Notes under the pieces: model-generated | The model's database searches: none | Told to the model about the DNA's origin: nothing | Seen by the model: only the letters and a program-made list of their open reading frames with translations | Translations under genes and position numbers: made by a program | Origin: an uncultured Eubacteriales bacterium | Lineage (GTDB): Bacteria; Bacillota; Clostridia; Oscillospirales; Oscillospiraceae | DNA: 64,000 nt | Assembly: GCA_900317905.1 (NCBI GenBank) | Contig: ONIN01000009.1 | Coordinates: 1-64,000 of the forward strand | Direction: 5' to 3' | Shown: one piece after another, positions 21,512-35,118 of the stretch | How positions within the stretch are numbered: position 1 is the first letter of the stretch | Layout of the letters: every line of letters begins with the position of its first letter

Positions 21512-21545
21512 AAAAAGACTCCGCAGAAATCCGATCTGCAGAGTC
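21512..21545 (-). terminator. Intrinsic terminator of the nitrogenase-like/hyp/hyd operon
   Basis: An 11-bp stem (GACTCTGCAGA with TCTGCGGAGTC, one G-U pair) and a 7-nt loop are followed on the minus strand by five T. It begins 6 nt after the hydE stop. Confidence 0.85.
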
Positions 21546-21551
21546 CATGGT

Positions 21552-22592
21552 TTATTCGATTTTCGCGTCGCCTCTGGAGGTGACCACCTGATAGCCGATG
21601 CGCTCCATGCGTTTTTCCATGCAGCCGTGGCACTCCGCCGCCTCGTCCCCGGTGCAGATCTTGCCGTCGTACAGCAAATACTTTCCCCGCACGTTGGTGG
21701 GCGAGAGATTCGGCATGACCACGTTGGCCCCGGCGAGGATGCCTTTTTCCCTCCCGAGGGGATGGATGGTGCCCAGCGCCGTGGTGGCCGGCAGCAGAAC
21801 CTTTGGGAACATCAACCGCAGGATGCTCAAAAGCCGCAGTGTTAAATGGTAGCTGCCCTGCGGTTCCTCCCGGAAGGGTGTGTCCTTGTGGGGCAGGAAG
21901 GGTCCGATGCCGATCATGTGGGGTTTGAGTTCCTGTAAAAACCGCAGATCTTCGATCAGGTATTCCTTGGTCTGCCCCGGCGCACCCACCATCATCCCAG
22001 CGCCAATCTGATAGCCGATTTCTCTTAATGCGAAAAGGCAATCCTTCCGGTTTTGGATGGAAAGCTCCTTCGGGTGGAGCATGGCGTAATGCTCTGCATT
22101 GGCGGTCTCGTGCCGCAAAAGGTAGCGATCCGCCCCAGCGTCGAAGAGGGCCTGATAGCTCTCTCGGCTCCGCTCCCCGATGGAAAGGGTGATGGCGCAG
22201 TCCGGGAACCGCTTTCGGATCTCCGCCACCAGCGGCACCATGCGGTCGTCGGTATAGTAGGGGTCTTCCCCGCCCTGCAGGACGAAGGTGCGGAACCCCA
22301 GATCGTAGCCCTGCTCGCAGCAGCTGAGGATCTGCTCTTCGCTAAGCCGATAGCGCTGGGCATTCTGGTTCCCGCAGCGGATGCCGCAGTAGTAGCAGTT
22401 GTTTTTACAGTAGTTGGTGAACTCGATGAGTCCCCGAAGATAGACGTCCTTGCCGTATTCCCGCTCCCGGATGACTCTTGCAGCGGCATAGAGATATTCA
22501 GTATCCTCCTTGGACAGGTCTCCCAGCAAGCGGACAAATTCCTCGTCACTGAGGTCGCTGGTCTGTGCGAGCTTATCAATGATGGATCTCAT
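21552..22592 (-). CDS. hydE: [FeFe]-hydrogenase maturation radical SAM enzyme HydE
   Basis: 346 aa, a normal HydE length. The radical-SAM cluster motif CKNNCYYC gives Cys62, Cys66 and Cys69 in CX3CX2C spacing. The BioB/HydE barrel follows (FVLQGGEDPYY, then GAPGQTKEYLIEDL, then MIGIGPFLPHKDTPF). HydE acts on the Fe(CO)2(CN)-cysteine synthon on the way to the [2Fe] H-cluster unit. It is the last gene of the 13-gene operon and overlaps hydF by 4 nt. HydG, the tyrosine lyase that normally makes CO and CN, is not encoded in this window. BioB and PylB are less likely given the coupling to HydF. Confidence 0.92.
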   Translation of the reverse strand: MRSIIDKLAQTSDLSDEEFVRLLGDLSKEDTEYLYAAARVIREREYGKDVYLRGLIEFTNYCKNNCYYCGIRCGNQNAQRYRLSEEQILSCCEQGYDLGFRTFVLQGGEDPYYTDDRMVPLVAEIRKRFPDCAITLSIGERSRESYQALFDAGADRYLLRHETANAEHYAMLHPKELSIQNRKDCLFALREIGYQIGAGMMVGAPGQTKEYLIEDLRFLQELKPHMIGIGPFLPHKDTPFREEPQGSYHLTLRLLSILRLMFPKVLLPATTALGTIHPLGREKGILAGANVVMPNLSPTNVRGKYLLYDGKICTGDEAAECHGCMEKRMERIGYQVVTSRGDAKIE

Positions 22593-23791
22593 GCTTTCTC
22601 GTCCTCATAACCCGGCAGCATGGCAATACTCCGATCCAGAATGCCGCGGAAGTACGCAATGAAAATGCCGTAGTTCGTTATCGGGATGTTCTGGTCGGCG
22701 GCGGATTTCATCCGATATTGGACTTCTTTGGCGTTGAGCATGCATCCGCCGCAGTGGATCACCATTTTGTAAGCAGACAGGTCCTCCGGGAAATCTCTGC
22801 CGGAGCTGGTGGCGATATGTAGTTCCTTCCCGGTGCACTGCTTCAGCCACCGCGGCAGCTTCACCGTGCCGATGTCATCGCACTGACGGTGGTGAGTGCA
22901 GCCCTCGGAGATCAGCACCGTGTCGCCGTTTTCCAGCATCGGGATCGCCCGGACGCCCTTCACCGCCGCGTCCAGCAGGCCCTTATACCGAGCCATAAGA
23001 ATGGAGAAGCTGGTGAGCGGAATGTCAGCGGGCAGGATGGCGTCCACTTTTTCGAACACCTGACTGTCGGTTATGACCATGGCAGGCTTTTGGGAAAGCT
23101 GCTTCAACGTGTCTGCGAGCTCCGTCTCCCGGGTGCAGACCGGAATGGCGCCGCAGTCGAGGATGTCCCGCATCACCTGCTGCTGCGGCAGGATCAGGCG
23201 GCCCTTGGGCGCGGCCTTGTCGATAGGAATCACCAGTACCACCAGATCCAGCGGATTCAGAAGATCGGATACCAGCGGCTGCTCGGTCAATACGCCCTCG
23301 CCCAGCTTCGCCAGCAGCTCCTTGCATTCCCGGATGTTCGTCTGCTCCGTAGCGCTGACGTAGATCTCGTGCTCAGCGACAGCAGGAATGGTTTCCAGCA
23401 GGTCCGCCTTGTTCCACACGATCAGGTAGGGCAAATTCTTCTCTTTGAAAAGTGCGAGAAGTTCTTCATCACACTGCTGCATGCCCTCCATCGCGTCCAC
23501 CACAAGTACGGCGACGTCGGCGCGGTTGAGCTCCTGTCTGGTCTTTTTGACGCGCAGCTCGCCCAGAGCGCCCACATCGTCGAAGCCGGGGGTGTCCACG
23601 ATCAGCACAGGGCCGATGGGCAGCAGTTCCATGGCCTTGCGCACCGGATCAGTAGTGGTACCGCGGGTCTCACTGACCACAGCCAGTTCCTGCCCGGTGA
23701 TGGCATTCACCAGGCTGGATTTTCCCGCATTGCGGCGGCCGAAAAAAGCAATATGCACCCGCTCGCCGGAGGGGGTATCGTTCAAACTCAT
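22589..23791 (-). CDS. hydF: [FeFe]-hydrogenase H-cluster maturation GTPase HydF
   Basis: 400 aa. The N-terminal GTPase domain has P-loop GRRNAGKSS (residues 18-26), DTPGFDDVG (G3) and NKAD (G4). A dimerisation domain follows. The C-terminal [4Fe-4S] site has the HydF pattern CxH (GCTHH) then HCGGC about 50 residues later. HydF is the scaffold that carries the assembled [2Fe] unit to apo-HydA. All catalytic and cluster residues look intact. It overlaps hydE downstream and a nitrogenase-like subunit upstream, each by 4 nt, so HydF is co-translated with nitrogenase-like proteins. Confidence 0.95.
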   Translation of the reverse strand: MSLNDTPSGERVHIAFFGRRNAGKSSLVNAITGQELAVVSETRGTTTDPVRKAMELLPIGPVLIVDTPGFDDVGALGELRVKKTRQELNRADVAVLVVDAMEGMQQCDEELLALFKEKNLPYLIVWNKADLLETIPAVAEHEIYVSATEQTNIRECKELLAKLGEGVLTEQPLVSDLLNPLDLVVLVIPIDKAAPKGRLILPQQQVMRDILDCGAIPVCTRETELADTLKQLSQKPAMVITDSQVFEKVDAILPADIPLTSFSILMARYKGLLDAAVKGVRAIPMLENGDTVLISEGCTHHRQCDDIGTVKLPRWLKQCTGKELHIATSSGRDFPEDLSAYKMVIHCGGCMLNAKEVQYRMKSAADQNIPITNYGIFIAYFRGILDRSIAMLPGYEDEKA

Positions 23792-24927
23792 AGGCTTGCT
23801 TCCTTTCGCAGAGCGTCGTAGTCGATGGTAAACAGGTTTTTCATGGTCTTCCGGAAGCAGCGTCCGGAGAAGGCCTCGTGGGGCAGTTCGATCAGCATTG
23901 CCCCTTTTGGGAGAATTGGCCGATATAACGGGTCCGCGATCACCACTTTGGCATCCTTCAGCGCAGTTTCCGCTTCCTCCTCCCCCACAACCGGTATTGT
24001 GTTGAGGCTCAGAAACGCTTCACAATCCTCCAGAGGGCAAAGCACCGTGCCGGGAAGTTCCAGCGCTGCCAGAACGGAGCCCATGGTCACCGGCTCCCCG
24101 ATGGCAAAAATGCCGGAGTCATTTTGATACAGCCGCTCCAAAAGCGGAAACTGATTCTCACCGGTCTTAATCGCTGTTCGGATGGCCGCAAAGACGGTTT
24201 CGGAGTAGCTGCCCAGAGGCGTCCCCACCACATAGGGGGTGCCGAAGCGCTCCCGCAGCACTTGAGCTGCCTTGAGACCGATTGCGGAAACCACCAGATT
24301 CACCGCTGCCTCACCAGAATGGGAGAGGGTCTCCAGCGTATCCCCCATGGCCCAGCAGGTATGTACAGAAAAGCCAGCGCGTTCCACGTTATCTCTGAGA
24401 GAGCCCGCAGAGCCGTCAGCCGCGAAATCCAACGGCGTGACACCGAGGAGATTCACGGTATTCGGCTTTTTCCCTTCTGGTTCCGACATAAACCGCTTCG
24501 CGATCTCCGCCAAGGCCATGCCGGCGCCGGGGACGTAGTCGTGCATTCCGTTGGTGGGAATGTAGAAGGTCGGGATTCCGGTGCGGTTTTCGATGATCCG
24601 GCTAATGGCCTCGAAGTCCGTGCCGTTCAGATACGGGATCGGTGAGTTCACCAGGGTGATGAATTTCGGATGCAGGTTCATGGCAGCGTCCACGGTGTCA
24701 TCGATCAGCTTCTGGTCGTTGCCGAAAACCGCATCGATCTCCGCCAGCCCGGAGATAAAAATGAGACTGTCGTGGTCGTACCAGCGGGTTTCGTCGTGGG
24801 TGTTGTAAGTGGAGTTGCAGCCGGAGGGGTCGTGGATGACCACCATGCCGCCCAGCTCAAACAGCGCCGAGCAGACGCCGGAGACGTCCCCGGTGTAGCA
24901 GGGAATGATGCGATAGCTCGTATTCAT
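23788..24927 (-). CDS. Nitrogenase component 1-like subunit, triad B, short form
   Basis: 379 aa from the ATG at 24927, overlapping the upstream stop by 4 nt. It belongs to the nitrogenase component 1 fold (NifD/NifK/BchN/CfbD superfamily). Candidate cluster Cys are at 10 (IIPCYTGD), 19 and 37 (DPSGCNSTY), in the place of the first P-cluster ligands. The middle LVNSPIPYLNGTDF region occupies the position of the component 1 loop that usually carries another Cys, but here Cys is absent. It is shorter than true NifK (~520 aa). It most resembles the other short subunit at 31831-32865. It probably pairs with the longer subunit at 24924-26231. The substrate is unknown. Confidence 0.82.
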   Translation of the reverse strand: MNTSYRIIPCYTGDVSGVCSALFELGGMVVIHDPSGCNSTYNTHDETRWYDHDSLIFISGLAEIDAVFGNDQKLIDDTVDAAMNLHPKFITLVNSPIPYLNGTDFEAISRIIENRTGIPTFYIPTNGMHDYVPGAGMALAEIAKRFMSEPEGKKPNTVNLLGVTPLDFAADGSAGSLRDNVERAGFSVHTCWAMGDTLETLSHSGEAAVNLVVSAIGLKAAQVLRERFGTPYVVGTPLGSYSETVFAAIRTAIKTGENQFPLLERLYQNDSGIFAIGEPVTMGSVLAALELPGTVLCPLEDCEAFLSLNTIPVVGEEEAETALKDAKVVIADPLYRPILPKGAMLIELPHEAFSGRCFRKTMKNLFTIDYDALRKEASL

Positions 24928-26231
24928 AGGCAGCTGACACACCCCAATCCCTTTCGCGGAACGATGTCCCGCGTGTCTTTTTCGTTCTGGAAAGCATCAA
25001 TCATAAGATCACACAATCTACGGATGCCCGCATAGCCCCAGAGGCCGCCGCCCTGAACCACATTCACAAAGTAGGGCGTGGAGGTGAACCATGCCGCCTT
25101 CGGGCCGATGGCGAGGGTCTTTTCCGCTCTGGTACGGTCCGCAATACGCTGCTCCGGCAGGATGATGGAACGCAGCTCCAAATCCGGGGCGTTTGCTTTC
25201 AGCCAGTCCAGTGCCGACCGCTCCGCCTCGTCCACGGCGTCCAGATAGACCTCCGTGACCCGGAAGCCGTGACGCAGCAGCAGCTTCGTCAACTCCAGCG
25301 GTCGCGGATGAAACAGCATATCAATGACAATGGGGGTGTCTCCCATCACCTTACAAGCTTTCTCCAATGCTGCATCACACTGCCGCTGTTCTTCCAGAAT
25401 ATCCAGCGGTTCCAAGTGGAGCGCATCGGTAAGTTCCTTTAAGGATGCAACGATGCTGTCATAATCAAAACTCATAGGGAGAAAATGGCAGGGTCTTCCC
25501 AGACGTTTTGCGGTCTGGGTGATGCCGAATTTTCCTCCCGGATAGGTGACGAGGAAGGTCTCCCCTTCCGCCAGACGCAGGTAATCGGTATAGGTTTTGC
25601 AGTCCTGCAATTCTCGAAGCGCATAACCGTTCTTCGATAAGATCCTTCGAATATCGGAATCCGGCTCCAGGGCAAATTCTGCCCCCAAAAGGGTGACAGT
25701 CTTTTCCTTCACCGGAAGCGGCTGCAGCGGATCGTACATGACCTTTCGAAGTCTCTGATCCGGCGGCAGACCGTGCTTCTGCATGATGGGGTCCATCCAG
25801 GCTCGGATAAAGTCGATCTCCGGGAACTCCTGCTCCAGAAAGCGGTAGATACTCTCCATGTCCACACCCATAAAATGATGCGTGCAGACCGGGAATACCG
25901 CAACGCAAGGAGGGAGCGACGGCAGCTTTCTGAGCACGTCGGCAATGCCGTCCCGGGTAGCCTCCCAGATGGTGCCGTCCACCACGTCCTCCTCTCTGAG
26001 CAGGACATAGGAAAACCGGTCCGAGGCCGCCATCTCCGCTGCCGTCAGCACCACGCCGCGCATGCAGTTGACACCGCAGATGTAGATCTGGTGCAATTCC
26101 GGGATCTGCATGGCGATATGGACGATGTTCCAGTTTTCGTGCACCGGCGGGTTGAATTCCAGCTTCTGGGGAAAGAGCGGATCTCCTGCGGTCTCCGGGG
26201 TGCGCACCGTGGGACCGAGACGTCTCAGCAT
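24924..26231 (-). CDS. Nitrogenase component 1-like subunit, triad B, long form
   Basis: 435 aa. GGGGGAGG lies 7 nt before the ATG, and the start overlaps the NifH-like stop by 7 nt. Candidate metal ligands are Cys52 and Cys56 (ICGVNC), Cys109, and Cys116 in the motif PVCTHHFMGVD. That motif is the counterpart of the STCPxGLIGDD loop that carries a P-cluster Cys in NifD. The FeMo-cofactor Cys and His of NifD could not be placed. It ends in a CVSCL tail, and those two Cys might be additional ligands. It would form an alpha-beta type heterodimer with the short subunit and receive electrons from the adjacent NifH-like ATPase. Confidence 0.82.
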   Translation of the reverse strand: MLRRLGPTVRTPETAGDPLFPQKLEFNPPVHENWNIVHIAMQIPELHQIYICGVNCMRGVVLTAAEMAASDRFSYVLLREEDVVDGTIWEATRDGIADVLRKLPSLPPCVAVFPVCTHHFMGVDMESIYRFLEQEFPEIDFIRAWMDPIMQKHGLPPDQRLRKVMYDPLQPLPVKEKTVTLLGAEFALEPDSDIRRILSKNGYALRELQDCKTYTDYLRLAEGETFLVTYPGGKFGITQTAKRLGRPCHFLPMSFDYDSIVASLKELTDALHLEPLDILEEQRQCDAALEKACKVMGDTPIVIDMLFHPRPLELTKLLLRHGFRVTEVYLDAVDEAERSALDWLKANAPDLELRSIILPEQRIADRTRAEKTLAIGPKAAWFTSTPYFVNVVQGGGLWGYAGIRRLCDLMIDAFQNEKDTRDIVPRKGLGCVSCL

Positions 26232-26980
26232 ATGGCATCCTCCCCCAATACAGCAGCAGCCAGCTTCCTATAAGCCTCCGCCATGTCGCTCTCCGGAAAG
26301 GCCTCCAGCACCGTCTTGCCCAGTTCCTCGGCGTCGGTAACCAGTTCCGAATGGGGCAGAGACGCAATGACTTGACTTTTAAAATCCTCGCTGAGCTCCC
26401 GAACCTTGGCATCCTCGTTTTTCACATTTCTGCGATTCAGGATGAAGCCGCCCAGTTTGGCGTAGCCGCGGTCCTTAAAGTTCTCCAGAGCCATGGCGAT
26501 GTTGGCCGCCGCGTGGATGGCCATGTTCTCCCCGGAAGTGAGGATGTAGACCTCGTCGGCATAGCCCCCGCGCATGGGCATGGAAAACCCGCCGCAAACC
26601 ACGTCGCCCAGCACATCATAGAGGACCACGTCCGGCTGATAGGTCTCGTTAGCGCCGTAATCCCGCAGCTTGTCCAGAGCGGTGATGATGCCGCGCCCGG
26701 CGCAGCCGCTCCCCGGCGTGGGGCCGCCGGCTTCCACGCAGACGATGCCCTTGTAGCCGATCCGCAACATATCTTCCAGTTCGAAGGGCTGCTTCGCTCT
26801 CACCAGATCCAGCACGGAGGTCAGGGGCGCGCCGCCTCGAAGAGCAAGCGTAGAGTCCGCCTTGGGGTCGCAGCCGATCTGCATGACCTTCAGACCGCGC
26901 TCGGCGAAAGCCACCGCCAGATTGGAGACCGTGGTGGATTTTCCGATGCCGCCCTTTCCGTAAAACGCAAGCTTTTTCAT
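26225..26980 (-). CDS. NifH-like iron protein (ATP-dependent reductase), triad B
   Basis: 251 aa, shorter than NifH (~275-290 aa) and close to BchL/CfbC-type iron proteins. The deviant Walker [10 protein letters not shown] is at residues 9-17. The switch and cluster motifs are intact: Cys93 in GCAGRG and Cys129 in DVVCGGF, which would bridge a [4Fe-4S] cluster between two monomers. CDPKADST and a switch II YDVLGD are present. It should act as ATP-driven one-electron donor to the two component 1-like proteins encoded immediately downstream. The ATG is preceded by GGAG. Confidence 0.93.
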   Translation of the reverse strand: MKKLAFYGKGGIGKSTTVSNLAVAFAERGLKVMQIGCDPKADSTLALRGGAPLTSVLDLVRAKQPFELEDMLRIGYKGIVCVEAGGPTPGSGCAGRGIITALDKLRDYGANETYQPDVVLYDVLGDVVCGGFSMPMRGGYADEVYILTSGENMAIHAAANIAMALENFKDRGYAKLGGFILNRRNVKNEDAKVRELSEDFKSQVIASLPHSELVTDAEELGKTVLEAFPESDMAEAYRKLAAAVLGEDAIC

Positions 26981-26983
26981 AGG

Positions 26984-27253
26984 TCACTCCAACTTCGTGA
27001 CCACGTTGGAATACGCGGTCTTGGTCATGACCCCGGGCAGATTCCCCAGCTTCCCCGACAGGGCGCTGATGATGTCCTGGGGTGCGTCGATGGCGACAGA
27101 AATGATGTTGATGCCCTTCTCCCGGTAAGGGATACCCATGCGGCCGATGATGTATTCGCCGGCGTCGCTCAAGAGGGCGTTCAGAGTATCGGTATTGGTT
27201 TTCGCGTCCACGATGATGGAGATCACCGCCACGCGGGTTTGGGTCATATCCAT
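26984..27253 (-). CDS. TM1266-type putative iron-only hydrogenase system regulator (ACT-like)
   Basis: 89 aa. It matches the TM1266/TIGR03959 family, a small ACT/NikR-C-like ferredoxin-fold protein found with [FeFe]-hydrogenase maturation genes (TRVAVISIIVD, then GRMGIPYREKGINIIS, then LPGVMTKTAYS). It has no DNA-binding domain, so it may bind a small molecule or modulate another protein; the regulator name rests on genomic association. It lies between hypE (11 nt gap) and the second NifH-like gene (3 nt gap). This independently ties the operon to [FeFe]-hydrogenase biology. Confidence 0.88.
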   Translation of the reverse strand: MDMTQTRVAVISIIVDAKTNTDTLNALLSDAGEYIIGRMGIPYREKGINIISVAIDAPQDIISALSGKLGNLPGVMTKTAYSNVVTKLE

Positions 27254-27264
27254 GTTCTCGCTCC

Positions 27265-28269
27265 TCAGCAGATGCGCGGCAGCAGCTCACCGCCGGGCTG
27301 CGGCAGCAGGGTCTCCGCGCCGATCTCGGTTTTCATGACCACCCAGCCGGGCTGCTCCGCCGTGATCTCTCCGATGATGGCGGCGCCCTGGGAATAGGGC
27401 TGGGTCTTGAGGGCTTCCACAAGAGCGGGAGCGACCTCTTTCGGTGCAATGACTACGAGTCTGCCCTCGCAGGCCAGATACAGCGGCTCCAGGCCCAGCA
27501 TCCGACACACACCGCCCACCGCCGGATCTACCGGGACGGAGGCCGCGTCGATCTTCACGCCCACATTGCTCTGGTGGGCGATCTCATACAAAACCGTGCC
27601 CACGCCGCCGCGGGTGGCGTCACGGATCACATGGACGTCCTTCGTGGTGTTCAGCATGGCTTCCACCGCGCCCCAGAGCGGCGCACAGTCGCTGGTGACT
27701 TCCGCTTCGATGCCGAAATCGTCTCTCGCCAGCAGGATCGTGCAGCCGTGGCGGCCCACATCGCCGGTGACGATCACCGCGTCGCCGGGCTTTGCCAGCG
27801 CGCCGGAGGTCTGCACCTCCGGTAGGATCTCTCCCACGCCGGTGGTGGTGATGAACACGCCGTCCACCTGGCCCTTGCCGGCCACCTTGGTGTCGCCGGA
27901 GACGATCTGCACGCCGGCCTCTGCTGCGGTTTTCGCCATGGCGTCTGCGATCTGCTCCAGCTTCTCCATGGGATACCCCTCTTCGATCACAAAGGCGCAG
28001 GAGAGGTACTTCGGCTTCGCCCCCATACAGGCGAGGTCGTTCACTGTGCCGCAGATGGAAAGCTTGCCCACGTTGCCGCCGGGGAAGAAAGCCGGGGAGA
28101 CGATGAAGCCGTCCGTGGTCATGGCCATCTTCCCCACCGGCGGGGTCAGGACGGCCGCGTCATCCGCGGTGAGGTTGGGGTTCTTGAATTTGGCCGCGAA
28201 GACGCGGTCGATGAGCTCGCTGGTCTGTTTGCCGCCCGCGCCGTGGGCCAATGTTACCTGATCGTTCAT
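27265..28269 (-). CDS. hypE: Carbamoyl-dehydratase HypE
   Basis: 334 aa from the ATG at 28269, overlapping the hypD stop by 4 nt with GGAGG upstream. PurM-like domains carry AHGAGG at the N-terminus, then DDAAV and GDTKV. The C-terminus ends LLPRIC, so the terminal Cys that HypF carbamoylates and HypE dehydrates to thiocyanate is intact. With HypF, HypC and HypD it makes Fe(CN)2CO from carbamoyl phosphate for [NiFe] hydrogenases. Neither hypA/hypB nor a [NiFe] hydrogenase gene is present in the window. Confidence 0.95.
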   Translation of the reverse strand: MNDQVTLAHGAGGKQTSELIDRVFAAKFKNPNLTADDAAVLTPPVGKMAMTTDGFIVSPAFFPGGNVGKLSICGTVNDLACMGAKPKYLSCAFVIEEGYPMEKLEQIADAMAKTAAEAGVQIVSGDTKVAGKGQVDGVFITTTGVGEILPEVQTSGALAKPGDAVIVTGDVGRHGCTILLARDDFGIEAEVTSDCAPLWGAVEAMLNTTKDVHVIRDATRGGVGTVLYEIAHQSNVGVKIDAASVPVDPAVGGVCRMLGLEPLYLACEGRLVVIAPKEVAPALVEALKTQPYSQGAAIIGEITAEQPGWVVMKTEIGAETLLPQPGGELLPRIC

Positions 28270-29315
28270 AAAAGGCTGCCTCCATACTGATAAAATGCCG
28301 AGCATGCGCCCTCGCCGGAGACCATGCAGGCTCCCACCGGGTGCTGCGGGTTGCAGGCCTTGCCGAAGACCGGGCAGTCCGAGGGCTTGCATTTGCCCTG
28401 GAGCACCTCGCCGCAGCGGCAGGCCGGGTTGGGATGCCCCTCGATGTGGGGCATATCGAATTTCTTTCTGGCGTCGAAATCGGCGTACGCCGCTCTGAGT
28501 CTGACGCCGGAGCCGGGGATCACGCCGAGACCGCGCCACTCGTTGTCACAGGGCTCCATGAGCTTTTCCGTCAGCGCCACGGCGTCGGGGGTGCCCTCCG
28601 GCTTTACCACTCTGGGGTAGGCGTTGACGAAGAAACTCTCGCCTCTTTCAAATCTGGTGACTGCCACGGCCAGGGCCGTGACCAGCTCCTTTGCCGTGAA
28701 GCCCGCCAGCACGCCGCTGACGCCCTCCTTCGCCATCCGCTCCAGCATGGCGGTGCCAGTGATGGCGTGAACGTGACCGGGATAAAGGAACACATCCGCG
28801 CTCCCCTTCAATGCCTTGTAGGCGTTGGGCATGGTCTTGTTGGCGGTCAGGAGGGAGAAATTATGCAGTCCCCGCTTCTGCGCCTGCTCGACGGCGAGGC
28901 AGCTTGCGGGGGTGGTGGTCTCGAAACCCACGGAGAGGAAGGTCACCTGCTCCTCCGGGTGTTTTTCTGCGTAATCCACCGCGTCCAGCGGAGAATAGAC
29001 CACCTGGATCTTGCCGCCCTCGGCTCTTGCGGCGGCGAGGCTCTGTTTTGTTCCCGGCACCCGCACCAGATCGCCGAAGGTGGTGATAGTAACGCCCTTT
29101 TCCAGTGCCAGCCACACGGCCTCATCGATGAAGCCCACCGGCGTCACACAGACCGGACATCCGGGGCCGGAAATCAGATCCACCTGCTTCGGAAGCAGCT
29201 TTCGGATGCCGAGACGAAAGATCTCGTGGGTGTGAGTGCCGCAGACCTCCATGATCCGCACCGGCGGCCCGGCATAGCTTTGCAGCAGTTCGGCTGCGGT
29301 TTTCTGTTCACTCAT
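28266..29315 (-). CDS. hypD: Fe(CN)2CO assembly scaffold HypD
   Basis: 349 aa, close to the family length. The conserved motifs are VCGTHTHEI (Cys25), SGPGCPVCVTP (Cys53 and Cys56), FETTTPA, and a C-terminal Cys-rich segment (ACRCGEVL, CKPSDCPVF, CNPQHPVGAC) that holds the [4Fe-4S] cluster. HypD with HypC carries the Fe(CN)2CO group and is the site of cyanide transfer from HypE. The ATG overlaps the hypC stop by 4 nt. Confidence 0.95.
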   Translation of the reverse strand: MSEQKTAAELLQSYAGPPVRIMEVCGTHTHEIFRLGIRKLLPKQVDLISGPGCPVCVTPVGFIDEAVWLALEKGVTITTFGDLVRVPGTKQSLAAARAEGGKIQVVYSPLDAVDYAEKHPEEQVTFLSVGFETTTPASCLAVEQAQKRGLHNFSLLTANKTMPNAYKALKGSADVFLYPGHVHAITGTAMLERMAKEGVSGVLAGFTAKELVTALAVAVTRFERGESFFVNAYPRVVKPEGTPDAVALTEKLMEPCDNEWRGLGVIPGSGVRLRAAYADFDARKKFDMPHIEGHPNPACRCGEVLQGKCKPSDCPVFGKACNPQHPVGACMVSGEGACSAFYQYGGSLL

Positions 29316-29524
29316 TGCAGCAGCGCCTCCATGACCGCGTCGGTCTCCGGCTCGTCGTCATCGGTGATTTTAGCAATGGCGACGCCGGCATGGACCATGA
29401 CGTAGTCGCCCGGCTCCAGATCCCGAAGCAGCTGTACGGAGACCTCACGCTTGGCGCCGGAGGCATCCACAACGGCGGTGCCGTCCGAAATCTTAACCAC
29501 TTTCGCAGAAAGTCCAACACACAT
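29312..29524 (-). CDS. hypC: HypC/HybG/HupF family chaperone
   Basis: 70 aa. The N-terminal Met-Cys essential for iron binding and HypD contact is intact (MCVGLSAKV), and LEPGDYVMVHAGVAI follows. With HypD it carries the Fe(CN)2CO moiety and in [NiFe] systems hands it to the large subunit. With no HypA/B nearby, the recipient here may be something else. Only 3 nt separate it from the hypF stop. Confidence 0.93.
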   Translation of the reverse strand: MCVGLSAKVVKISDGTAVVDASGAKREVSVQLLRDLEPGDYVMVHAGVAIAKITDDDEPETDAVMEALLQ

Positions 29525-29527
29525 GAT

Positions 29528-31831
29528 TTAGTCCTCCTCAGTATGATCGTTCAAATATTGCATGGCATAGACCGCCTGCCCCAGGCAGACGCCGCCGTCG
29601 TTGGGCGGGATGAGGCTGTGCAGCAGCACACGGAAGTCCCGTTTTCGGAGTTCCTCCACACACAGCCGCAGCAGCAGCAGGTTCTGGAAGGTACCGCCAG
29701 TGAGTGCTACGGTGCTCACGCCGGTGTCGGCTCTCACCTTCTCGCAGGCGGCGACGATGCAGTCTGCAAGGCCTTTGTGGAAAGCGAAGGCAAGCTCCTC
29801 CGGGTCTTCCCCGTTCAGCCGCCGCTGCAGCAGATGCTGAAACAGCGTATCGGTGGCAAGCGCAAATGGTTCACCGTCTCGTATCAACTCCGAAAGCGGC
29901 GCGCAGTCGTGCTCTCCGCGCTCAGCAGCAAACTGCAGGCTCATGGCCGCCTCCCCCTCGAAGGTGGAGTTCAGCCGGATACCCAGCATGGCGCTGACCG
30001 CATCATAGAGGCGGCCCGCGCTGGTGGAGCGGACGGTGTTCAGATTCCGCGCGCGCATCATTCGGATGGTTTTTGCCTCCTGCTCGGTGCAGAGATTCAG
30101 GCTTTGAATGGTATTCAACGCTTCGACCGGATCTTCATAGCAGTCAAAGATCATGGATGCCGCGTCTCGCCAGCCCTCCTTGGCCGACAGGTCGCCGCCG
30201 GGCTGCAGGAAGGACGCAATGTGGCCCCGTCGCTGGAAGCCCCGATAATCCGAGAGCAGGATCTCGCCGCCCCAGATGGTGCCGTCAGTGCCATAACCGG
30301 TGCCGTCGAAGCTGACGCCGATGGTCTTTTCGGCGTAGTCGTTTTCCGCCATGCAGCTGAGCACATGGGCGTAGTGATGCTGCACCCGCACCAGCGGCAG
30401 GTGGTAGCTCTCCGCCACCACGGTGGAATTGTACTTCGGGTGGAGATCACAGGCCACCAGCTGGGGCTGGATCTCCAGCAGGGTCTGGAACCGCTCCACC
30501 GTCTCCCGCAGGGCCCGGACGGTACGGATGTCCTCCAGATCGCCCACGTAGGGGGATGGGTAGAACAGACCCGAAGAGCCGATGCAGAAGCTGTTTTTCA
30601 GTTCGCCGCCGATGGCGAGGATCTGGCCCTCATAGTCCTGACTCAGCAGGTACGGCAGCGGCGCGTAGCCTCTGGAGCGCCGGATCATATAGGGCTTCCC
30701 CTCGAACAGATCCATGACCGTATCGTCGGCACGGATGCGGATCATCCGGTCGTGGGACAGGATGGCATCGCAGAGGTGGCCCAATTCCCTCGCGGCCTCC
30801 TCGTCGTCTCTGCAGATGGGCGCGCCGGAGATGTTGCCGCTGGTCATCACCAGGCAATCCGGCATGATTACATCGTCATCATAGTCGAACAGCAAGAGCT
30901 GAATCGGCGCGTAGGGCAGCATGACGCCCAGCTTCGGATTGCCCGGGGCCACGGCCTCACAGATGCTGCCGGTTTCTTTCCGTTTCAGCAGCAGGATCGG
31001 CTTCTGGTGGCCGGTGAGGATTTCTTCAGCAACGGGGATGGTATCACACTCCCGCTGCACCGTCTCCAGATCCCGCATCATCACGGCAAAGGGTTTTGCC
31101 GGACGGCGCTTACGCGCTCTTAATAGCGTCACCGCTTTTTGATTGGTGGCGTCGCAGCAGAGATGGAACCCGCCGATACCTTTTACCGCGATGACGCCGC
31201 CCTCTGCCACGATGCGTCTGGCTTTTGTGATGGCTTCTCTCCCCCGCTCGCCGGTGCCCAGCAGATACATTTCCGGGCCGCAGTCGTTGCAGCAGACCGG
31301 TTGTGCGTCGTAGCGGCGGGTGGCGGGGTCGTAGTACTCCGCGGCACACTGGGGGCACATGGGAAAGGCCTTCATGCTGGTACGCTCCCGGTCGTAGGGC
31401 AGCGCGTCCAGAATCGTCAGTCTGGGGCCGCAGCAGGTGCAGTTGATGAAGGGGTGGAGATACCGCCGATCCTTCGGGTCGTAGAGCTCCTTTTTGCAGT
31501 CCTCGCAGATGGCAATGTCCGGGGAGATGAAGATCTCGCCCTTGGTCTTCGCGCTCTCGATGATGTCAAAATCCGAATACTCCGGCGCTTCCGGGGCGGG
31601 CTTGGCGTCGATTTTCAAAATGGCGGCCCGACGAGGCGGTCGGGTCTCCAGTGCCGTCTGGAAGGCCTGCACCTGTTCCGGTGTTCCCTGAACAAAGATC
31701 TCCACATAGGGGCCTTTGTTGCAGACGGTGCCGGTGACGCCGGTCTCCATGGCGTGACGGCTCACCGTGGGACGGAAGCCCACGCCCTGGACGATGCCAT
31801 AGACTCTCAGGCGTTTCGTGATCCGTTCCAT
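29528..31831 (-). CDS. hypF: Carbamoyltransferase HypF
   Basis: 767 aa from the ATG at 31831. The frame runs back into the upstream gene, but homology begins at MERITKRLRVYG, and GGGAGG precedes. The start overlaps the upstream stop (TGATG). Domains in order are acylphosphatase (VQGVGFRPT), two Cys4 zinc fingers (CEDCKKEL, CTCCGPRL, CPQCAAEY, CNDCGPEM), a YrdC-like domain and a Kae1-like domain with metal-binding HHYAH. It transfers a carbamoyl group from carbamoyl phosphate via carbamoyl-AMP to the HypE C-terminal Cys. The first nitrogenase-like triad lies immediately upstream. Confidence 0.95.
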   Translation of the reverse strand: MERITKRLRVYGIVQGVGFRPTVSRHAMETGVTGTVCNKGPYVEIFVQGTPEQVQAFQTALETRPPRRAAILKIDAKPAPEAPEYSDFDIIESAKTKGEIFISPDIAICEDCKKELYDPKDRRYLHPFINCTCCGPRLTILDALPYDRERTSMKAFPMCPQCAAEYYDPATRRYDAQPVCCNDCGPEMYLLGTGERGREAITKARRIVAEGGVIAVKGIGGFHLCCDATNQKAVTLLRARKRRPAKPFAVMMRDLETVQRECDTIPVAEEILTGHQKPILLLKRKETGSICEAVAPGNPKLGVMLPYAPIQLLLFDYDDDVIMPDCLVMTSGNISGAPICRDDEEAARELGHLCDAILSHDRMIRIRADDTVMDLFEGKPYMIRRSRGYAPLPYLLSQDYEGQILAIGGELKNSFCIGSSGLFYPSPYVGDLEDIRTVRALRETVERFQTLLEIQPQLVACDLHPKYNSTVVAESYHLPLVRVQHHYAHVLSCMAENDYAEKTIGVSFDGTGYGTDGTIWGGEILLSDYRGFQRRGHIASFLQPGGDLSAKEGWRDAASMIFDCYEDPVEALNTIQSLNLCTEQEAKTIRMMRARNLNTVRSTSAGRLYDAVSAMLGIRLNSTFEGEAAMSLQFAAERGEHDCAPLSELIRDGEPFALATDTLFQHLLQRRLNGEDPEELAFAFHKGLADCIVAACEKVRADTGVSTVALTGGTFQNLLLLRLCVEELRKRDFRVLLHSLIPPNDGGVCLGQAVYAMQYLNDHTEED

Positions 31832-32865
31832 CACTTGCCATCGCCTCCCAGATCGCCGGAGACCGGGAACTGCGGCACGCTGATGGTCTCGCCGGCAAAC
31901 TCCGGAACAATACGCCAGAGGGTGCCGTCGCCGATCAGCAGATCGAAGTTTCCCCGCATCACCAGCTCCTCGAAGTCGTCCTCTTCTTTCAATCGGACAT
32001 CCCCCGCCTGCGCCAGCTCTATCAGTTGCAAAAACCACGTTGCGCAAGTGACTGATGCCGCGCCTCGCTCCAAAAGAATCTCCCGCATGGTGTTGGCGCG
32101 CACCTGCTGGTCGATAATCAGGATCCGCTTTCCGGTGTAATCCCGCTCGGGCAGCAGAGACGCCGCCAGCGGGTCGAAAACCTCATAAGGGGTGCCGAAT
32201 TTTTCCTTTAGATACTTTGCCGCCTTCAGTCCGTCCGGGGCAACGACGATGTTCTTCTCCGCAGCGGAGGCGGAGATCACATCCTCCAACGTGCTGCCCA
32301 TGCCATAGCAGATCGCGCCGGGGATCTTTTCTTTGATTTTCTCAGCCGCTCTCAAATCGCTCATGTCCAAAGGATTCACGCCAAGGACGCCGACTCTGCC
32401 CGGTTCCACCGGCAGCTGCTCTTTGGCAAATCGCCGCATCAGCTCCAGATAGGCTTTTTCCGCGCCGATGTCATAAAGCTCCATGCCCGTGGTGTCCACG
32501 GTGAGGATGGGGAAATCCAGCTGCTTTTCCGCCATTCTCCGAAGGGCCCGGTAGTCGGTGCCGATGACCGAAGGTACCGGCGTACCGACGATGCAGGCGA
32601 ATTTGGTGTCCAGCTTCTTGCCGGCGTCCACCAGCTCCGCCACCAGCTTGTCGTCGCGTCCAAGGATCGCATCCATGTCCCGGAGCCCGGCGCTGAACAC
32701 CGCGCTGCGGCAGGTGTGCCATCGAGGCTCGTCAAAGCCGCAGATGTTGCCGGTGCAGCCGCCGGCGTCGCAGATGACCAGGATGCCGCCCAACTCATAC
32801 AGGACACTCACAGCCCCGGACTGGTCGGGGGCAAAGGGCGTCAAATATTTCCGAAGTCCTCTCAT
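31831..32865 (-). CDS. Nitrogenase component 1-like subunit, triad A, short form
   Basis: 344 aa, overlapping the long subunit by 4 nt upstream and hypF by 1 nt downstream. Near the N-terminus three Cys lie in a component 1 setting: Cys32, Cys37 and Cys42 in ICDAGGCTGNICGF. The region CIVGTPVPSVIGTDYRAL is the counterpart of the loop that in NifD/NifK carries another cluster Cys before a conserved IGxD. The C-terminal half has a Rossmann-like part (KRILIIDQQVRANTM). It is much shorter than NifK and most like the short subunit of triad B, arguing for duplication of a whole triad. Its substrate and cofactor are unknown. Confidence 0.82.
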   Translation of the reverse strand: MRGLRKYLTPFAPDQSGAVSVLYELGGILVICDAGGCTGNICGFDEPRWHTCRSAVFSAGLRDMDAILGRDDKLVAELVDAGKKLDTKFACIVGTPVPSVIGTDYRALRRMAEKQLDFPILTVDTTGMELYDIGAEKAYLELMRRFAKEQLPVEPGRVGVLGVNPLDMSDLRAAEKIKEKIPGAICYGMGSTLEDVISASAAEKNIVVAPDGLKAAKYLKEKFGTPYEVFDPLAASLLPERDYTGKRILIIDQQVRANTMREILLERGAASVTCATWFLQLIELAQAGDVRLKEEDDFEELVMRGNFDLLIGDGTLWRIVPEFAGETISVPQFPVSGDLGGDGK

Positions 32866-34145
32866 TTGAGCACCTCCGTCAATGCCTCCATCAGCCGCCG
32901 CAGACCGGCGTAGCCGTAGGGCTGAACGTCACTGTTCCACTGGAGATTCGGACATTCGGGGTGGTAATACCCTGCGTCCTTGCCGATGGTCAGTTCCGCC
33001 GGACAATCGGCAGCGTCATAATAGAGCATGGTGGGTTCCATGTTGGAATAGATCCGGGTCTCCGGGCTGAGGACGGACAGCCGCTCCAGATAGCCGAAGT
33101 TCTCCCCGGAGATGGTGCCGAAGATCTCGGTCACCTTGAGTCCGTATTGGGTCAGCGCCAGCGCCAGCTCGAAGGGGTCGCCGTTCATGCACTCGCCGAT
33201 GGCGACACGGAGTCCCTGATGGTCTCCGGCAAAGGCGTCCACCGCATGTTTTGCGCTTTCATAATCTTCCGCGTCATCGAACGACGCACCCAGCACGCGC
33301 CCCAGGGCCTGATACTGGTTTCGGATCTTGTCGATCTGATACAGCCGCGTCAGCTCGATGGAGGGGATCTTTAATCGCTCTTCAAAGTCCGAGGCCGCCA
33401 TCCGTGCCTCCGGGTGGAGCACCAGATTGAAATTGGCCTCCGCCATGTGCTGAAACTCCTCATAGTCTTCGCAGGTGGAGATCTCCCGGATGGCCTTCAC
33501 GCCGATGCCGCGGAGATATCGGAACAATTCAAAATCATCCGCCACCGGGGCGAAGAAGCCCAGCAGATTCACAGAGGTGCCCCGCTTCTTTCTCGGCTCC
33601 AGCAACGAATAGAGGCTCTGCCGCACGTGGACCATGGGTGGCTTGCGCCCCTCGCGGGTGAGGGCGTACATATAGCAGGGTTTGACCGGGAGGCCGACAC
33701 GCTCCTCTGCTTTTCGGCAGACCCGCTCCATGTCGGTACCAAGAAGGGCATCCACGCAGGTGATGCAGATCATCACCAGTGAGGGCTTTTTCTCCAGGCA
33801 TTTCACAACTTCTTCTACCGCCTGGGGGATCTTTTTCAGGTGCCGCCCGGTGACCACGTCGGTCTCGTCCATATTCAGATAGAAGAACCGATCTTTATAA
33901 GCTGGCATGGCGCTGACCAGAGAGGTGTTCCGCCCGCAGCAGCCCGGCGCCACCAGAAGCATCACAGAGCCCGGGATCGCGAGGCCCGCACGCTTGACGC
34001 CGAAGCCCTCGGCGCCGGGCGAGTTGAAGGCCAACGTCGCCGGGGAGCTGTAGATCAGATGGCGGCTGGAGACCAGCTCGTCCGGCAGATCCTCCAAGCC
34101 CCGATTAGCCAGCTCGGCGGCGGTGTAAAACTTTGCGTCTGTCAT
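32862..34145 (-). CDS. Nitrogenase component 1-like subunit, triad A, long form
   Basis: 427 aa. Candidate cluster ligands are Cys69/Cys70 ([10 protein letters not shown], at the first P-cluster ligand position) and Cys127/Cys130 in [14 protein letters not shown], the equivalent of the NifD STCPxGLIGDD loop. Late in the protein [14 protein letters not shown] contributes a His-Pro-Glu-Cys that might be a cofactor site, but I cannot align it to the NifD cofactor Cys or His with confidence. NifD/NifK are about 100 residues longer. It should pair with the short subunit downstream and take electrons from the NifH-like protein upstream. Both junctions are 4-nt overlaps. Confidence 0.83.
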
Positions 34146-34897
34146 GGCTGTTCCTCCAGCAGGCTCCTTGCCAGATTCAGAAATCTCTGACTCACCGGCA
34201 GGGTCGGGTCACCCTCGATGACGGTCTTGCCCTGGTCCTCAAATCGAATGATGTCATCGCTTCTGGGGATCTCCGCCACGATTCTAAGATCGTTCCTGTC
34301 GCAAAATTCCTGCACCTTCTCCGTCTCCCGTTCCACGTTCCGGTGGTTCAGGATGACGCCCTCCACGCGGGCGTAGCTCCGGTCGGCGAAGTTCTTCACG
34401 GCGCTGTTGATGTTATTGGCGGCGTAAAGGGCCATTTTCTCACCGGAGGTGACGATCAGCACCTTCTCCGCGTAGCCCTCCCGGATGGGGGCAGCAAAGC
34501 CGCCGCAGACCACGTCGCCAAGGACGTCATAGAGCACCACGTCCGGCTTGTGGGTCTCGAAGAGCTTCAGATCCTCCAGCAGCTGGAAGGTGGCAATGAT
34601 GCCTCTCCCCGCGCAGCCGAGGCCGGGGGTGGGGCCGCCGGTCTCGATGCAGAGGACGCCGCCGAATCCCACCTTGGAGATTTCCTCCAGAGTATCGGGA
34701 TCCTCGTCCTTCTCTCTTAAATAATTCATCACCGGCAGCAGCGGTTCGCCCCCCAGCAGGTTGATGGTGCTGTCTGCCTTGGGGTCGCAGCCGATCTGGA
34801 TGACCCGCTTTCCCAGGCTGGCGAAGGCCGCCGCCAGATTGCTGGTGACGGTGGACTTGCCGATGCCGCCTTTTCCGTAGATTGCAAGTTTTAACAT
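34142..34897 (-). CDS. NifH-like iron protein (ATP-dependent reductase), triad A
   Basis: 251 aa from the ATG at 34897, with GAGG 8 nt upstream; another ATG two codons earlier is too close to it. Deviant Walker A is GKGGIGKST (residues 9-17), followed by CDPKADST. The [4Fe-4S] ligands are Cys95 in GCAGRG and Cys131 in DVVCGGF. It is a clear paralogue of the triad B protein of identical length. It is the first gene of the operon behind a leader with a conditional terminator. A dedicated electron donor to the two downstream subunits is inferred. Confidence 0.94.
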
Positions 34898-34903
34898 AGT
34901 CAT

Positions 34904-35083
34904 TTCCTCAACGCGAAATTCGATTCAGAGGACGCAAAAAGCTCCCCTGCCGATGGCAAGGGAGCCTGAAAATGTTATAGTTACCCCATGGTGAACATTT
35001 CCCGCTCGGATCGCTCCTTGCCGTCAAGTTTCCATTGATGCGTCCCGAAGGGCTTTCGGTGGTGAGCCGTCAGTCCTTTCGGT
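34904..35083 (-). promoter_or_regulatory. Structured 5' leader, candidate riboswitch or attenuator
   Basis: This is the predicted transcript leader, about 180 nt. GGCAAGGAGC (35013-35022) is complementary to the 5' arm of the terminator (34955-34965), enclosing a smaller helix AAATGTT/AACATTT (34994-35000 with 34970-34976). This antiterminator helix and the terminator cannot form together. Upstream are short hairpins: CCGAA/TTCGG around AGCCC, and CTTG/CAAG. No short leader-peptide gene or tRNA-like T-box was evident. I could not assign a known riboswitch class by eye. Confidence 0.7.
34936..34965 (-). terminator. Conditional terminator in the leader of the nitrogenase-like/hyp/hyd operon
   Basis: A perfect 11-bp stem (GCTCCCTTGCC with GGCAGGGGAGC, one G-U) and an ATC loop are followed on the minus strand by five T. 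It sits inside the 5' leader, about 40 nt before the first start codon, so it must be bypassed for expression. Confidence 0.88.
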
Positions 35084-35089
35084 ACAATT

Positions 35090-35118
35090 ATTATACCATG
35101 GTATGGCTTTTCCGTCAA
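35090..35118 (-). promoter_or_regulatory. Sigma-A promoter of the nitrogenase-like/hyp/hyd operon
   Basis: Minus strand TTGACG (35113-35118), exactly 17 bp, then TATAAT (35090-35095); transcription should begin near 35083. Two dyads overlap it: the 12-bp palindrome ATACCATGGTAT at 35093-35104, and GCTTTTCC/GGAAAAGC at 35106-35113 and 35121-35128 around the -35. Confidence 0.85.

Follow-up and report, generated by a model that had tools for sequence, protein, structure and literature searches.

The window analysed in the present study, 64,000 nucleotides (positions 1 to 64,000) of contig ONIN01000009.1 from an uncultured bacterium of the family Oscillospiraceae (assembly GCA_900317905.1), contains an operon of thirteen genes, all located on the minus strand between positions 34903 and 21552, in which nitrogenase-like genes stand together with hydrogenase maturation genes. 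In the order of transcription, the genes are H1, D1, K1, hypF, hypC, hypD, hypE, TM1266, H2, D2, K2, hydF and hydE, and adjacent genes overlap by up to 19 nt (K2/D2) or are separated by at most 11 nt (TM1266/hypE). An earlier note, made from the sequence alone, had described this gene set and order, and searches with curated profiles confirmed both. The first triad includes the NifH-like ATP-dependent reductase H1 (34142..34903; Fer4_NifH 291 bits, TIGR01287 308 bits with a cut-off of 394), the nitrogenase component-1-like protein D1 (32862..34145; Oxidored_nitro 121 bits) and its component-1-like partner K1 (31831..32865; Oxidored_nitro 74 bits); the H1 start at 34897, used in the earlier note, is in better agreement with the ribosome site than the start of the longest frame at 34903. 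Then follow the carbamoyltransferase HypF of cyanide synthesis (29528..31831; TIGR00143 743 bits, cut-off 466), the chaperone HypC with Cys2 kept (29312..29524; TIGR00074 63 bits, cut-off 48), the Fe(CN)2CO scaffold HypD (28266..29315; TIGR00075 381 bits, cut-off 193), HypE with the C-terminal residue Cys334 (27265..28269; TIGR02124 422 bits, cut-off 252) and a putative regulator of the TM1266 type (26984..27253; TIGR03959 110 bits, cut-off 61). The second triad consists of the NifH-like reductase H2 (26225..26980; Fer4_NifH 284 bits, TIGR01287 312 bits, cut-off 394), the divergent component-1-like protein D2 (24924..26231; Oxidored_nitro 28.8 bits, cut-off 28.6) and its partner K2 (23788..24942; Oxidored_nitro 104 bits), the profile of which matches NifD, NifE and BchB in the PDB. 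The operon ends with the H-cluster maturation GTPase HydF (22589..23791; TIGR03918 561 bits, cut-off 326) and the H-cluster radical SAM maturase HydE (21552..22592; TIGR03956 587 bits, cut-off 255; HydE structures matched with E 5e-90).

The single promoter and single 3′ terminator named in the earlier note were both located, a sigma-70-like promoter (TTGACG and TATAAT with 17-nt spacing, 35090..35118, minus strand) and an intrinsic terminator 3′ of hydE (21512..21546, minus strand), but two features of the leader had been overlooked. These are a highly conserved RNA element, a candidate riboswitch (34977..35038, minus strand; covariance model R1, E 2e-10, the window sequence being part of the seed), and, between this element and H1, a terminator-like hairpin followed by a T run, an attenuator candidate (34936..34966, minus strand).

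Judged by profile comparison, the two triads are NifH-like proteins accompanied by nitrogenase-fold pairs that lie under every named nitrogenase cut-off. H1 and H2 reach 308 and 312 bits against 394 for NifH, and the D and K proteins at most 76 bits with the NifH/NifD families; the scores with CfbC of F430 synthesis (296 and 309 against 402) and with BchL of dark-operative protochlorophyllide reductase, DPOR (210 and 192 against 345), are also below the cut-offs. Unlike NifEN, DPOR (BchNB) and other nitrogenase-like proteins, the proteins of the operon thus fall under the cut-off of every named family. By fold, the component-1-like proteins belong to the nitrogenase superfamily, and the component 1 fold is also predicted for D2, despite its marginal Oxidored_nitro score. 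Four Cys residues of H1, including C97 and C133, are kept in 27 of 27 sequences. Conserved Cys residues were found at positions 69, 70, 127 and 130 of D1, 52, 56 and 116 of D2, 37 and 42 of K1 and 42 of K2, a pattern that would allow for an Fe-S cluster at the interface. With regard to the Cys and His ligands of FeMo-cofactor, judged from residue conservation, D1 and K1 show no Cys or His at 85 percent conservation other than up to residues 173 and 42, and D2 and K2 keep some. A single frame covers D1 and K1 in 13 loci, of which two are cut, and H2 and D2 in four, which suggests that these pairs work together; a single NifH-like gene serves both pairs in many actinobacterial loci and in the loci of genus g163.

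A scan of the K2-family alignment against a one-genome-per-species collection gave at least 582 relatives. The best 80 of them, together with the loci from two whole-genome draws, make up 102 loci, not de-duplicated, which were classed as type A (at least one hyp gene) or type B (a binding protein and/or a permease and no hyp gene). Type A accounts for 64 loci and type B for 29, nine are unresolved, and none contains both kinds; since 64 of the 102 carry at least one hyp gene beside nitrogenase-like genes, the composition of the operon is not a matter of chance. D1/K1 are visible in 51 of the 64 type A loci, the other 13 being read as cut by contig or flank ends, and the first triad accompanies hypFCDE wherever the fetched sequence extends far enough. 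Type A hosts include Lachnospiraceae, Oscillospiraceae, acetogenic Clostridium (C. ljungdahlii, C. drakei, C. luticellarii and C. muellerianum) and Atopobiaceae of the Actinomycetota. The "obligate co-expression" assumed in the earlier note is too strong a term, as hydE and hydF are found elsewhere in the genome in C. ljungdahlii, Coprococcus comes, Blautia and others; in 20 carrier genomes where no operonic copy of hydE was in view, HydE was found in all 20, the HydG-positive G232 among them.

In biology, the CO and CN− ligands of the H-cluster are attributed to HydG, which counts as indispensable; HydE converts the HydG product, Fe(CO)2(CN)(cysteine), and the [2Fe] unit is then delivered to HydA by HydF. 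The operon resembles the HydEFG system in HydE, HydF, the TM1266 neighbour and the target, [FeFe] hydrogenase, but lacks HydG and has HypCDEF and two nitrogenase-like triads instead. In the survey of carriers (58 of 89 candidate genomes: 50 of the 80 named loci, together with eight of the nine genomes that the order draw gave at E ≤ 1e-40), HydG was above the cut-off in four. The best HydG-profile match in the source genome reached 68 bits against a cut-off of 312, and the single match in C. ljungdahlii, also with 68 bits, is HydE. A divergent HydG was considered and rejected, the mid-score matches tested being ThiH over its cut-off in eight cases out of eight. HydF was found in 56 of the 58 carriers (missing in G200 and in G205, where the end of hydF lies at a contig edge) and HypD in 40 (absent in 16 of 16 type B genomes, in G206 and, at a contig end, in G218). 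The operon also resembles the HypABCDEF system of [NiFe] maturation, with HypCDEF complete and the Cys2 of HypC and the C-terminal Cys of HypE kept; unlike that system, it lacks hypA and hypB, and the [NiFe] large subunit was matched in just five of the 58 carriers, two of these matches being N-terminal pieces only, with no [NiFe] hydrogenase match in the source genome. Uniform presence of HydG and of a [NiFe] hydrogenase in carriers, which the earlier note had named as a refutation of its proposal, was not observed.

The PF02906 domain of [FeFe] hydrogenase was found in 57 of the 58 carriers, in 56 of them at E ≤ 1e-40. Among the 30 best HydA loci, three of which come from HydG-positive genomes, 29 have all three H-cluster Cys motifs and the thirtieth has two; the source genome itself holds two complete HydA proteins with all three motifs. 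In G400 (L139), a full HydA gene lies directly upstream of the operon and ends about 320 nt before H1. As a separate observation, the first H-cluster motif reads TSCSP instead of TSCCP in 22 of 29 HydA sequences read (L107–L136), two of them from HydG-positive genomes.

In even draws of 197 genomes of the order and 341 of the class, the module and HydG seldom occur together. The order draw, where K2 was called at E ≤ 1e-40, contains 92 genomes with HydF, 81 with HydG and nine with K2, and among the HydF-positive genomes K2 is present in seven of 12 without HydG versus one of 80 with it (p 7e-7); the corresponding totals of the class draw are 231, 214 and 19, and the proportions are 13 of 24 versus four of 207 (p 8e-12), the draw genomes in both cases being related and not independent samples. 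When the class draw was limited to genomes with a completeness of 90% or more and a contamination of 5% or less, a hand count gave K2 in 12 of 16 HydG-negative versus three of 174 HydG-positive genomes (Fisher p 2e-13). HydG is absent from all 17 draw genomes where K2 lies beside hyp, hydE, hydF or TM1266 (G528 being judged by coordinates). In the five draw genomes that have both K2 and HydG (G184, G317, G390, G420 and G505), the triad is of a divergent kind, and the sequence fetched there shows neither hyp nor hydE, hydF or TM1266. The exchange is also visible inside genera where all genomes concerned are HydF-positive: genus g163 includes six genomes with K2 and no HydG versus three with HydG and no K2, and genus g243 two versus one. 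A HydF tree built by a quick method (33 operon and 19 HydG-linked sequences) requires three label changes against 15.6 after shuffling; HydF therefore mostly moves together with the module, and the exchange appears to concern the module as a whole.

Given that the module nearly excludes HydG in genomes that keep HydE, HydF and HydA, the reading preferred here, to which we assign a probability of about 0.78, is that HypCDEF and the nitrogenase-like pairs replace HydG as the source of the Fe-CO-CN unit used by HydE and HydF. An H-cluster precursor route of this kind, free of HydG and fed by Hyp-made Fe-CN/CO, was among the possibilities raised in the earlier note, and the genome distribution supports it well; the chemistry of the nitrogenase-like pairs we infer. 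HypF and HypE make cyanide from carbamoyl phosphate, and HypC and HypD assemble Fe(CN)2CO. The HydE alignment contains 81 columns invariant over 29 operon and 14 HydG-linked sequences. Operon-specific changes were sought in HydE (29 versus 14) and HydF (33 versus 19), and the comparison gave no clear active-site signature, from which we infer that the Fe-CO-CN unit reaching HydE is of the kind that HydG provides. The conversion of Fe(CN)2CO to the HydE substrate needs the loss of a cyanide or the gain of a CO, a task for which ATP-driven nitrogenase-like pairs would be suited. In the proposed sequence of steps, HypCDEF would make the Fe(CN)2CO unit; the first triad (H1 with D1-K1) would use ATP-driven low-potential electrons to remodel it, either by taking away a cyanide or by adding a CO, which could come from CO2; and the second triad (H2 with D2-K2) would hold or reduce the resulting unit and pass it to HydE, as NifEN does for FeMo-cofactor. 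This order of steps and the job given to each component-1-like pair are put forward tentatively.

Besides the relatedness of the draw genomes, several observations weigh against this reading. HydA adjoins the module in only one of the 102 loci scanned (G400) and in Loigolactobacillus rennini. HydG and K2-type genes occur together in four of the 58 carriers: G232 (C. drakei), G206 (Oliverpabstia), G184 and G244. The operon of G200 (Blautia MSJ-9) is accompanied by neither HydF nor a HydE-like match and by a weak HydA (156 bits), so the module there may do something else or be decaying; the HydA match has an E-value of merely 2e-12 in G148, and none was found in G245. HydF-positive, HydG-negative genomes without K2 number eleven in the class draw and five in the order draw, and four of those of the class (G104, G402, G516 and G518) are at least 90% complete, which possibly reflects a third solution or an assembly gap. 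The absence of HypD from all 16 type B genomes means that Hyp is not a universal source of the ligands. Finally, a 2022 survey of acetogens (PMC9431212) names a HydG for C. autoethanogenum and, for the other acetogens, a candidate that would be an atypical HydG. In the four K2-less genomes (loci L152 of G104, L153 of G402, L154 of G516 and L155 of G518), HydF is present, and HydE and TM1266 stand beside it in three of the four.

Under an alternative that we regard as unlikely, the component-1-like pairs give only CO, or electrons, Hyp gives CN−, and the ligands reach HydE and HydF free or loosely bound, with no remodelled iron synthon. It can draw on the fact that nitrogenase and NifH can reduce CO2 to CO. 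It also fits the result, given in PMC9431212, that HydF produced with HydE as the only other maturase activates HydA to about 1 percent, and that free CO or CN− doubles this activation. Against it stand the columns of HydE, conserved as in HydG organisms, and the type B loci, where HypD is lacking. Moreover, HypCD makes an iron-bound unit.

It is more improbable still that the product of the module is another CN/CO-ligated cofactor, or its substrate a different one, and that the H-cluster ligands come by an unrelated, unrecognised route. The G200 operon without HydF speaks for such a function, as do the divergent triads found with importers and without hyd genes in HydG-positive genomes, but HydE, HydF and TM1266, and in two cases HydA, belong to the same module, HydG is nearly excluded, and no candidate apo-enzyme is seen in the operon. 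The suggestion of a wholly new cofactor for the component-1-like proteins, also made in the earlier note, is ranked lower, because HydA is present together with HydE and HydF that look as they do in HydG organisms. That HydG was simply missed in incomplete assemblies, the cluster being an ordinary [NiFe]/[FeFe] maturation locus, is hardly credible: the source genome is 79.6 percent complete, but the pattern is unchanged in genomes at least 90 percent complete, HydG is also lacking in isolates such as C. ljungdahlii, Coprococcus comes and Blautia luti, and [NiFe] matches occur in five of 58 carriers.

In the 29 type B loci, H2-D2-K2 are accompanied by a binding protein and/or a FecCD-type permease in place of the Hyp genes; six contain the divergent triad, 17 contain TM1266, and 12 contain hydE or hydF. 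The 16 type B genomes surveyed have HydF in all cases, a PF02906 match in 15, HydG in two (G184 and G244) and HypD in none. An NCBIfam scan of L018 and L020 showed that the permease (L020) is similar to BtuC/FecCD and the binding proteins to iron-siderophore or heme binders, all under the named cut-offs. Long TM1266-bearing frames occur in 14 loci, and the three that were read encode an ABC ATPase with a C-terminal TM1266 domain (L016, 1693–3072; L018, 5358–6413; L021, 12726–13784), a fusion suggesting that TM1266 may sense or control transport. In the lactic acid bacterium L. rennini, a type B module begins with an [FeFe] hydrogenase: HydA heads TM1266, the permease, the ATPase, hydE and H2 at the end of one contig (L208), and H2, D2, K2, the binding protein and hydF lie at the start of another (L096). 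The divergent triad with a binding protein and/or permease and no hyd or hyp genes was observed in L146, L147, L148, L149, L150 and L022, from HydG-positive genomes and from G384, where neither HydF nor HydG was matched; it probably has another function. The type B importer may either bring in a CN/CO-bearing unit or supply iron, another enzyme then supplying the ligands. A more speculative picture, which we hold to be doubtful, is that type B bacteria take up an iron unit already in organometallic form, or its CN/CO-bearing precursor, that neighbours have released, and that the nitrogenase-like pair acts with HydE and HydF to complete the H-cluster from it. Gut communities would in that case hold the parts of the H-cluster in common, and the type A leader RNA would be a new riboswitch for the product or an intermediate.

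The leader element was found upstream of H1 in 26 of 41 loci whose upstream sequence spans 250 nt or more, some genomes being counted twice; besides the window, L178, L179, L181–L187, L189, L195, L058, L068, L080 and L138–L140 carry it. Outside the seed, the model matches five loci (L137, L069, L052, L055 and L105) at E < 0.01, in every case in the leader of H1. Among twenty HydG-type loci no match was better than E 0.17, and the type B loci searched gave no match up to E 1; the model also misses the Clostridium leaders (L192–L194), where a look-alike sequence is visible. A known riboswitch was considered and set aside, as no Rfam family fits: with Rfam 15, the window leader had no match up to E 5, and the loci of 16 relatives had none over the gathering score at their leaders. 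A terminator-like hairpin lies 3′ of the element in the window and in several other Clostridia leaders; in seven actinobacterial loci (L042, L049, L052, L055, L068, L069 and L080), the element abuts the start codon, and the G400 operon has a second copy between hypF and hypC (L139, 8889–8953, E 2e-7). The structure is modestly supported, since RNAalifold supports only four pairs, without two-sided changes, and in the proposed outer helix three pairs show two-sided changes and 73.6 percent of the cells are paired, with a covariation score that was attained in five of 500 shuffles. The element looks like a new riboswitch candidate.

The statement in the earlier note that no such system had been described is nearly right. 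The available part of a 2012 survey (PMC3464626) had already noted NifHEN-like genes beside hydrogenase maturation genes, with a clade in Coprococcus catus and Dorea, and suggested a role in metallocluster assembly for this clade, with no link to HydG in that part. PMC9431212 could not find HydG in five of eight Clostridium acetogens and describes five that have HypCDEF but no HypAB; the scenarios offered there are tentative (an atypical HydG, free ligands or unidentified mechanisms). In its available part, nitrogenase-like genes go unmentioned, and the word nitrogenase occurs once, in the title of a reference. Table 4 of that survey lists C. autoethanogenum with HypCDEF and without HypA and HypB, and the Hyt [FeFe] hydrogenase of this species has been characterised (PMC5861303, which describes HytA-E, PMC4022347 and PMC9004356, as far as their available parts go); this combination is counted in favour of the HydG-independent route, the genome examined here being that of C. 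ljungdahlii. The available part of PMC10418091 contains nothing on this module. No paper linking the absence of HydG to nitrogenase-like genes was found in a search that lay outside bioRxiv and most subscription papers, so earlier priority is possible.

The proposed replacement of HydG by HypCDEF and the nitrogenase-like pairs would connect two published observations that had been left unexplained, the failure to detect HydG in acetogens that have HypCDEF without HypAB (2022) and the NifHEN-like genes found beside hydrogenase maturation genes (2012). A second route to the ligands, if true, would change the view of [FeFe] hydrogenase assembly in gut Lachnospiraceae and in industrial syngas acetogens. 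An orphan group of nitrogenase-like proteins would also gain a function, and H2 metabolism could be approached from a new side in genetics and engineering.

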